From Bacteroidota bacterium (lineage in GTDB: Bacteria > Bacteroidota > Bacteroidia > UKL13-3), in assembly GCA_947460345.1 (NCBI GenBank), contig CANHGM010000020.1, positions 1 to 57,751 of the forward strand: DNA of 57,751 nucleotides, in the 5' to 3' direction. Under the pieces are notes generated by a model. The model worked only from the letters and a program-made list of their open reading frames with translations. It did no database searches and was not told where the DNA came from. Shown one piece after another: positions 5,894 through 7,907 of the stretch (its first letter is position 1; each line of letters starts with the position of its first letter). Both the position numbers and the translations under genes were made by a program.

Positions 5894-5901
5894 TAAATTT
5901 G
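5894..5901 (+). promoter_or_regulatory. -7 promoter element of the MbnP-like gene
   Basis: TAAATTTG is an exact TAnnTTTG match. Only 7 nt separate it from the ATG at 5909, so transcription should start at or next to the start codon (near-leaderless mRNA). Confidence 0.6.
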
Positions 5902-5908
5902 TATCGAA

Positions 5909-6655
5909 ATGAAAACACCAATAAAAATATTATTTGCTCTACTTTTAATTTCATCCTTTTATAGTTGTAAGCCAAAAAAAGTTTCGATTGGCAAAGGAAT
6001 GATAAACTTTAATATAGAGCATAAGTTTGGGAACAACTTGTTAGAGGTTGATCCAAACAAATTTTATAAGAATGCAGCAGATAACACGTTTAATACCTCT
6101 CTTTTAAAATACTATTTAAGTAATTTTATATTAACTAATGATAAAGGAGAAGAAGTTAAATTAAACAATTATGAGTTAATAGACATGTCTAAAAGCTCTT
6201 CATTAAGTTTTAAATATGATAATATTTTAAATGGAAAATTTAACAAACTTAAGTTTTGTGTAGGCGTTGATTCTGTTGCAAATTCAACAGGAGACCACAC
6301 AGGTGCATTAGACCCTGCAAATGGAATGGACTGGGGTTGGAACTTTGGATACCGTTTTTTTATGTTTGAAGGACAGTATAAGAAAAATGATACAACTGCG
6401 GCAACTTCATATACCTATCATATAGGAACAAATGAAAATTTATTTACTGTTGAGCTTCCTATAGACTTTGAATTGGTTGATAATTCAAAATCAATTACAA
6501 TGGTATTAGATATAGAAAAAGTATTAAATACTCCTAATAGATGGGATTTTTCTAAAAATGACTATAACCACAGTAGCAATGCCCAAGAAGTAAAAGACAT
6601 AAAACCTTTTATTGAAAATTTAAAAAGCAGCTTTAGCATAAATTCAGTAAAATGA
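5909..6655 (+). CDS. MbnP-like copper-binding lipoprotein
   Basis: 248 residues with a lipoprotein signal (SFYSC, Cys20). The mature chain matches the MbnP family: IEHKFGNN early in the domain (His38), TSLLKYYLSNFIL, the FCVGVDSVANSTGDHTGALDPANGM segment region, the aromatic DWGWNFGY patch (Trp142, Trp144) and YTYHIG (His171). In methanotroph MbnP one tryptophan is oxidised to kynurenine by MbnH and the protein binds copper through His and kynurenine. The immediate neighbour is an MbnH/MauG-type diheme protein whose ATG overlaps this stop, which strongly supports the pairing. Which Trp would be modified here cannot be told by eye. Confidence 0.82.
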   Translation: MKTPIKILFALLLISSFYSCKPKKVSIGKGMINFNIEHKFGNNLLEVDPNKFYKNAADNTFNTSLLKYYLSNFILTNDKGEEVKLNNYELIDMSKSSSLSFKYDNILNGKFNKLKFCVGVDSVANSTGDHTGALDPANGMDWGWNFGYRFFMFEGQYKKNDTTAATSYTYHIGTNENLFTVELPIDFELVDNSKSITMVLDIEKVLNTPNRWDFSKNDYNHSSNAQEVKDIKPFIENLKSSFSINSVK

Positions 6656-7767
6656 GTAAATTGATATATATATATATGTTTATATTGTTAGTTTTTTTTG
6701 CTACATGTAAAAAAGACCCAGCAATATATGTTGAAAATATATATAACCCCACTCCATACAAACTTACTTATCCTACAGGGGTATTGCCACCAAATATCCC
6801 AGCAGAAAACCCTTTAACCGTTGAAGGCGTTGAACTAGGAAGAAGGTTGTTTTATGACAAAAAGCTATCAGGAGATAACACCATGAGTTGTGCTTCTTGC
6901 CACGGGCAAGCATTTGCATTTACTGACAATAATAATCAATTTAGCAAAGGAATAACAAATGAATTTGGCAAACGAAACGCCATGCCAATTTTTAACCTTG
7001 CTTGGGAAAAAACTTTTTTTTGGGATGGCGGAGCACCTAATTTAGAATCGCAAATTGTTGGTCCACTGACATCTCCTATTGAAATGCATAGCAGTTTTGC
7101 TGATGTTGTTGAGAAGCTAAAAGCTGACCCTATATATCCTAAAATGTTTAAAAAAGCGTTTGGAAAAGATACAATAACAAGTGCATATATAATGAGGGCC
7201 ATTGCCCAATTTGAAAGAAGTATTGTTTCGTTTAATTCGTTGTTTGATAGAACATATAAGACACAAAAGCAGCGTGAGTATGCATTACAAAATCCAATTA
7301 CAAGACTAGATAGTGGTTTTTTAGTGTTTGCATTAGATTCTAGCCCGTCTCGCCCTAATTTAAGACCAGGCCACTGTTGGCATTGCCATGGTTTATCTCC
7401 ATCTACCGCTTTATTTACCGACCTTAGTTTTCATAATAACGGCTTAGAAGATGTATATGTAGATTCAGGTAGAATGAGAATTACATATAATGAAATTGAC
7501 AGAGGTTTTTTTAAAACACCAACGTTAAGAAACTTGGCATATACAGCACCATACATGCATGATGGAAGATTTAAAAACATAGAAGAAGTAATAGAGCACT
7601 ATTCAAGCGGGGTTCATTATTTGAATAACAAAGACGGTATTACTAGAAACGACTTTTCAAGACCGTTAAAGCTTAATGCAAGAGACAAGGAGAATTTAAA
7701 GATTTTTTTATTGTCATTATCTGATAGCTCACTTCTATACGAAGAAAAATACAAGTCACCTTTTTAA
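6652..7767 (+). CDS. MbnH/MauG-family diheme cytochrome c peroxidase-like lipoprotein
   Basis: 371 residues with a lipoprotein signal (ATC, Cys19). Two c-heme motifs are present: CASCH (80-84) and CWHCH (242-246). Between them are the features of the CcpA/MauG fold: FFWDGGAPNLESQ with a conserved Trp (Trp124) between the hemes, and GPLTSPIEM with an acidic residue near the active site (Glu144). Later comes TLRNLAYTAPYMHDGRF, where Met302 occupies a position that in this superfamily can ligate the other heme; MauG itself uses a Tyr ligand. Given the four-base ATGA overlap with the MbnP-like gene, its likely job is oxidative maturation of that protein rather than peroxide detoxification. An (AT)7 tract (6664-6677) lies in the signal-peptide codons. 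Confidence 0.85.
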   Translation: MSKLIYIYMFILLVFFATCKKDPAIYVENIYNPTPYKLTYPTGVLPPNIPAENPLTVEGVELGRRLFYDKKLSGDNTMSCASCHGQAFAFTDNNNQFSKGITNEFGKRNAMPIFNLAWEKTFFWDGGAPNLESQIVGPLTSPIEMHSSFADVVEKLKADPIYPKMFKKAFGKDTITSAYIMRAIAQFERSIVSFNSLFDRTYKTQKQREYALQNPITRLDSGFLVFALDSSPSRPNLRPGHCWHCHGLSPSTALFTDLSFHNNGLEDVYVDSGRMRITYNEIDRGFFKTPTLRNLAYTAPYMHDGRFKNIEEVIEHYSSGVHYLNNKDGITRNDFSRPLKLNARDKENLKIFLLSLSDSSLLYEEKYKSPF

Positions 7768-7876: not shown

Positions 7877-7907
7877 TTTGTTTTTTAAATATTTAAATAT
7901 AGATTTG
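7877..7907 (+). promoter_or_regulatory. Promoter of the 1850-residue surface protein gene
   Basis: A TTTG -33 box (7877-7880), a 19-nt spacer and TAGATTTG (7900-7907) match the Bacteroidota TTTG-N19-TAnnTTTG consensus exactly. It is among the best promoters in the window. It predicts a leader of about 85 nt. Confidence 0.75.

Follow-up and report, generated by a model that had tools for sequence, protein, structure and literature searches.

MauG, an enzyme of methylamine dehydrogenase biosynthesis, is a diheme protein that oxidizes tryptophan in a partner protein; its substrate is preMADH and its product TTQ. For MbnP, a 2021 PNAS study is said to have located kynurenine formation at the first tryptophan of a WxW motif, and protein-derived kynurenine copper sites have, to our knowledge, been characterized in methanotrophs only. 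The MbnP/MbnH pair is conserved far beyond methanobactin producers, as was described in 2013 (PMC3621798); pairs outside methanobactin operons, and therefore the system itself, were already known at that time. In the CorA/CorB and MopE/SACCP systems of methanotrophs a copper protein is likewise encoded with a diheme MauG-like protein (PMC3912023, PMC3423442). The copper of CorA is bound by His64, His114 and Kyn62 (PMC3912023), and neither CorA nor MopE has marked sequence similarity to MbnP (PMC3621798).

A divergent MbnP/MbnH pair in a Bacteroidota genome

The window analysed here, a stretch of 57,751 nt from a Bacteroidota genome (3.0 Mb, 99.3% complete), carries two overlapping genes on its forward strand, to which the coordinates of all features of the window refer. 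The upstream gene, mbnP (5909–6655), encodes a 248-residue MbnP-family lipoprotein with a lipobox Cys20, an assignment based on PF20243, an AlphaFold2 model and the 7l6g fold; the downstream gene, mbnH (6652–7767), encodes a 371-residue diheme lipoprotein of the MauG/CcP superfamily, identified by PF03150, by TIGR04039 and by its resemblance to 6e1c in both sequence and fold. An earlier note on this DNA had placed the two reading frames at these positions with a 4-nt overlap, and both were recovered there, with the mbnP stop and the mbnH start sharing ATGA, so that the two genes are adjacent in the sense of GenProp0940. The lipobox cysteines, located by eye in FYSC20 (MbnP) and FATC (MbnH), each lie at the end of a signal peptide.

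The assignment of the upstream protein to MbnP held when it was compared with the family HMM: it matched PF20243 with an E-value of 2.4e-40 in Pfam (138.9 bits; gathering score 27). The MbnP model TIGR04052 (MbnP_like_WxW equivalog) ranked first in NCBIfam, at 41.5 bits, below its cut-off of 140. The best PDB fold for the AlphaFold2 model (mean pLDDT 88.5) was MbnP of M. trichosporium, 7l6g (Z 18.1 over 205 residues, rmsd 3.1), and the second-best entry reached a Z of only 6.1.

MbnH contains CxxCH motifs at residues 80 and 242 and matched CCP_MauG (PF03150) in Pfam with an E-value of 7.5e-58, as expected of the two-CxxCH MauG-family protein that had been proposed. Its best NCBIfam model was TIGR04039 (244.7 bits, below the cut-off of 362.85), and it scored 163 against the MauG model TIGR03791, for which the cut-off is 444. 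Both proteins of the window fall far below the equivalog cut-offs, and these scores therefore place them in the wider family, outside the curated core. The closest solved structure by sequence was 6e1c (phmmer E 8.7e-48), a MauG-like protein associated with microbial copper homeostasis, and the same entry was the best fold for the MbnH model (pLDDT 81.0; Z 33.9, 39% identity), followed by the nearest cytochrome c peroxidase (Z 29.6) and by MauG, which is likewise diheme (Z 26.6).

The two heme-binding motifs, CASCH (residues 80–84; 6889–6903) and CWHCH (residues 242–246; 7375–7389), are invariant in 150 aligned MbnH sequences. Trp124 (7021–7023), the candidate inter-heme tryptophan, is kept in 138 of 151 sequences and in 6e1c, and Tyr317 (7600–7602) is tyrosine in 138 of the 139 ungapped sequences and again in 6e1c. 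Tyr317 occupies the axial Met position of classical CcP (1iqc, 4aal), so that all the features of an MbnH-like diheme protein, namely two CxxCH, a tyrosine for the axial Met and an inter-heme tryptophan, are found here. Because tyrosine in place of Met also occurs in the unpaired MauG-like proteins of the host genome, this residue separates the group from classical peroxidases and is not, alone, a mark of MbnH.

The pair of M. trichosporium OB3b (7l6g, 6e1c; TIGR04052/TIGR04039; GenProp0940) has the same families, gene order and folds, and shares with the window pair the WxW tryptophan, the histidine of HVG, the two CxxCH motifs and the tyrosine, although in structural alignments identity is ~18% for MbnP and the above 39% for MbnH. 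The window MbnP lacks the four-Cys pattern of the M. trichosporium protein, and His221 replaces the Met of its CMS motif. Unlike M. trichosporium OB3b, the host genome yielded no match to the MbnB family (PF05114) in a search that detected its controls, which agrees with the suggestion in the earlier note that the pair lies away from methanobactin genes, and both proteins fall below the equivalog cut-offs. Judged by its sequence, the window pair is a divergent branch of a known system.

Pairing, co-evolution and distribution

MbnP genes were gathered by similarity to MbnP alone, with neighbours ignored, giving 194 genes: 189 from Bacteroidota and 5 from plasmid records of other phyla. An MbnH gene lies directly downstream in 189 of the 194; 188 of these were found by script, and the remaining one, L044, was among the six script negatives but has an MbnH ORF in an earlier scan. 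The pairing of MbnP with MbnH is not due to chance, and together with the 4-nt overlap it upholds the view that the genes form a tight two-gene unit. The MbnP genes without an adjoining MbnH are L103, L091, L130, L162 and L208.

Tree distances for MbnP and MbnH were correlated, with r 0.768 over 150 pairs; when partners were reshuffled within genomes in 1000 trials, the mean r was 0.513 and the maximum 0.650. The agreement between the trees shows that every MbnH is carried along with the MbnP it is paired with, an outcome expected both under operon inheritance and under partner specificity.

Three MbnP genes occur in the host genome, and an MbnH follows every one of them. Three unpaired MauG-like genes were seen in the same genome (G000 C5:46409-47479, C29:17100-18053 and C10:39670-40539), as was a MauG-like fragment with two stop codons (C19:24151-24360). 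Every one of the 64 genomes sampled from the host's taxonomic family within the Bacteroidota had MbnP, as did 78 of 296 genomes across the phylum; a scan of genome contigs gave one weak relative.

The tryptophan substrate

The motif DWGWNFGY, to which the earlier note had drawn attention, is present at residues 141–148 of MbnP and includes the WxW of this protein, W142-G-W144, which aligns with WNW in the proteins of M. trichosporium and Methylocystis. Within the longer M-x-W-x-W, Met140 (6326–6328) is Met in 177 of 195 relatives. Trp142 (6332–6334), the predicted kynurenine site, is the best conserved position of MbnP, being kept in 193 of 195 sequences (99%), and Trp144 (6338–6340) is kept in 169 (87%). 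The region around both tryptophans had been proposed as the site of modification; Trp142 withstands this comparison, but Trp144 does not, since the second tryptophan is absent from, and hence dispensable in, a subgroup of MbnP that is paired with MbnH, and the candidate substrate can thus be narrowed to Trp142. Paired MbnP without the second tryptophan are of the type MxWP..MGGGYHF or SMDWSGMGFRF (L087, L089, L127, L170, L187; L096, L107, L118).

Conservation of Trp142 with variation at Trp144 fits kynurenine formation at the first tryptophan of WxW. Because the first tryptophan and the pairing with MbnH are both near-absolute, they lend indirect support to conversion of tryptophan to kynurenine, and by analogy with the characterized pair MbnH most likely converts Trp142 of its partner MbnP.

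Candidate metal ligands

With the start Met set aside, columns 140, 171 and 221 are the only ones in the 195 MbnP sequences in which His and Met together exceed 75%. His171 (6419–6421), a predicted copper ligand already picked out from the sequence in the earlier reading, aligns in the profile alignment with the histidine of HVG/HLG in characterized methanotroph MbnP, and 160 of the 195 sequences have His at this position, 33 having Asp. The Asp171 proteins are found in one taxonomic family, f1 (e.g. L016, L021, L026), and 32 of the 33 carry His at 221. Since these same-family relatives have Asp171, the site would not be identical in all members of the family. His38, which had also been listed as an MbnP motif, is indeed in the sequence, yet histidine occurs at this position in just 60 of 195 relatives, and we rejected it as a defining ligand motif.

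Residue 221 (6569–6571), overlooked in the first reading, is likely to be the second ligand position. Of the 195 sequences, 90 have His and 71 have Met here, with ~10 switches between the two by parsimony, about five each way, and both other MbnP of the host genome have Met. The mapping of 221 comes from the MAFFT alignment, the profile alignment having ended before this residue; there, His of the window protein stands opposite the CMS Met of MbnP from M. trichosporium. Neither His nor Met is present at 221 in 4 of 5 unpaired MbnP as against 30 of 189 paired ones (Fisher p 0.0035, an approximate value because two of the five unpaired proteins look orthologous to one another).

Since the window MbnP has His221 where the characterized protein has Met, a copper site of two histidines and kynurenine is possible. 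The Kyn plus two His site of CorA and MopE could, by prediction, be reproduced with His171 and His221, although the CorA site is arranged as Kyn62-x-His64 with His114 and the window MbnP has WxW instead. We offer as a tentative suggestion that the site of the window protein is His171/His221/Kyn142, which would combine the MbnP fold with CorA/MopE-like chemistry. Alternatively, a Met ligand might be supplied by Met140, which is present together with His171 in the window protein, instead of by position 221.

Promoter and gene neighbourhood

The sequence TAAATTTG (5894–5901), which ends 7 nt before the MbnP start, resembles the Bacteroidetes -7 element (TAnnTTTG) and is a putative short-leader promoter. 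The earlier note had envisaged a near-leaderless promoter, and for this the evidence divides: in 7 of 10 relatives a TAnnTTTG is found no more than 90 nt before the start, which makes a short leader for mbnP plausible, but no clear -33 element was found for TAAATTTG, and in the whole window the motif occurs at chance level (106 seen, 106.3 expected). The window-wide count, showing no enrichment, was rejected as evidence for a promoter.

The idea that the window pair lies in a copper gene cluster was likewise rejected: no copper gene adjoins it, the neighbours being a gene for a sigma-54 response regulator and one for a T9SS surface protein. The downstream T9SS gene is common to the window and its nearest relative, G052, which also retains the pair. 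Co-transcription of this gene with the pair is doubtful, because it starts 233 nt past the MbnH stop and has a TAnnTTTG of its own at 7900–7907. In same-family relatives (L082, L083, L084, L085, L086, L090, L093, L094, L095) the pair is divergent from a 163-residue gene, which we take to resemble yajQ; in the window the sigma-54 response regulator stands in its place.

Elsewhere, the pair of D. radiodurans is adjoined by CopC and CopD, that of Paracoccus has PCuAC and two SCO genes nearby, and that of G037 has an HMA protein, an HYC_CC_PP protein and a TonB receptor; these copper neighbours are individual examples. Another pair of the host genome (L077:6162-9004) is preceded by a sigma-factor-like gene and one for a Spy/CpxP-like Metal_resist protein. 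In other Bacteroidota, a Cys-rich protein of ~120 residues is encoded beside the pair at 10 of 20 loci, mostly upstream (e.g. L225:4465-4803, forward strand), and a CDxCGC-type protein of ~320 residues at 12 of 20, mostly downstream (L225:6900-7877, forward strand); neither has a match in Pfam or NCBIfam. A gene of the CDxCGC type also stands beside the host-genome pair on contig C2 (L076:5412-6326, reverse strand).

Discussion

From the M. trichosporium pair we infer the conversion of tryptophan to kynurenine, the binding of copper and a role in copper homeostasis. Both proteins would be exported and lipid-anchored in the envelope, where MbnH, with its two c-type hemes, would become oxidized at the diheme centre. 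Oxidized MbnH would then turn Trp142 of its own partner MbnP into kynurenine, and Kyn142, with His171 and His221 (or Met140), would form a high-affinity Cu(I) site, the modified MbnP serving to acquire or store copper in the envelope. Taken as a whole, from kynurenine at Trp142 through the Cu(I) site to an envelope copper role, this reading is in our judgement probable.

MbnH may instead modify MbnP in another way, the product being, for example, an oxygenated tryptophan or a tryptophan cross-link, or the metal one other than copper, as might be expected of a diversified branch. Members of the superfamily do make other products, such as the TTQ of MauG, and here the branch lies below the equivalog cut-offs and both the second tryptophan and residue 171 vary. 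We nevertheless think such a departure unlikely, given the 99% conservation of Trp142 and an alternation of Met and His at 221 that suits a soft metal such as Cu(I).

If MbnH were simply a periplasmic cytochrome c peroxidase acting to remove H2O2, with MbnP a mere accessory lipoprotein, one would have to explain why tyrosine replaces the axial Met of CcP, why the best match in sequence and in fold is 6e1c and no CcP, and why co-evolution is partner-specific; we regard this as very improbable, even though the Pfam family of MbnH is CCP_MauG, classical CcPs come next in fold similarity (Z 28–30) and unpaired MauG-like genes also occur in the host genome. The two further complete pairs in that genome might suggest that the window pair, as one paralogue among three, has decayed or lost its function, but both frames are open, the heme and site residues are all retained, and G052 has kept the pair with the same downstream gene, and decay therefore hardly deserves credence. 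We prefer the reading in which MbnH makes kynurenine at Trp142 of MbnP.

Three points are new here: the system is universal across the sampled genomes of one Bacteroidota family, Trp142 can be told apart from Trp144, and position 221 alternates between Met and His. If the His171/His221/Kyn142 site is correct, the Bacteroidota family as a whole would form a natural series: its second ligand would have changed repeatedly between Met and His, with Gln or Thr in this position in side branches and Asp for His171, the modified tryptophan remaining fixed. Residues 144, 171 and 221 vary in nature, which provides a ready series for testing copper ligands and the substrate tryptophan. The occurrence of MbnP in all 64 genomes of the family, nearly always with MbnH, suggests that the modification serves general copper handling.
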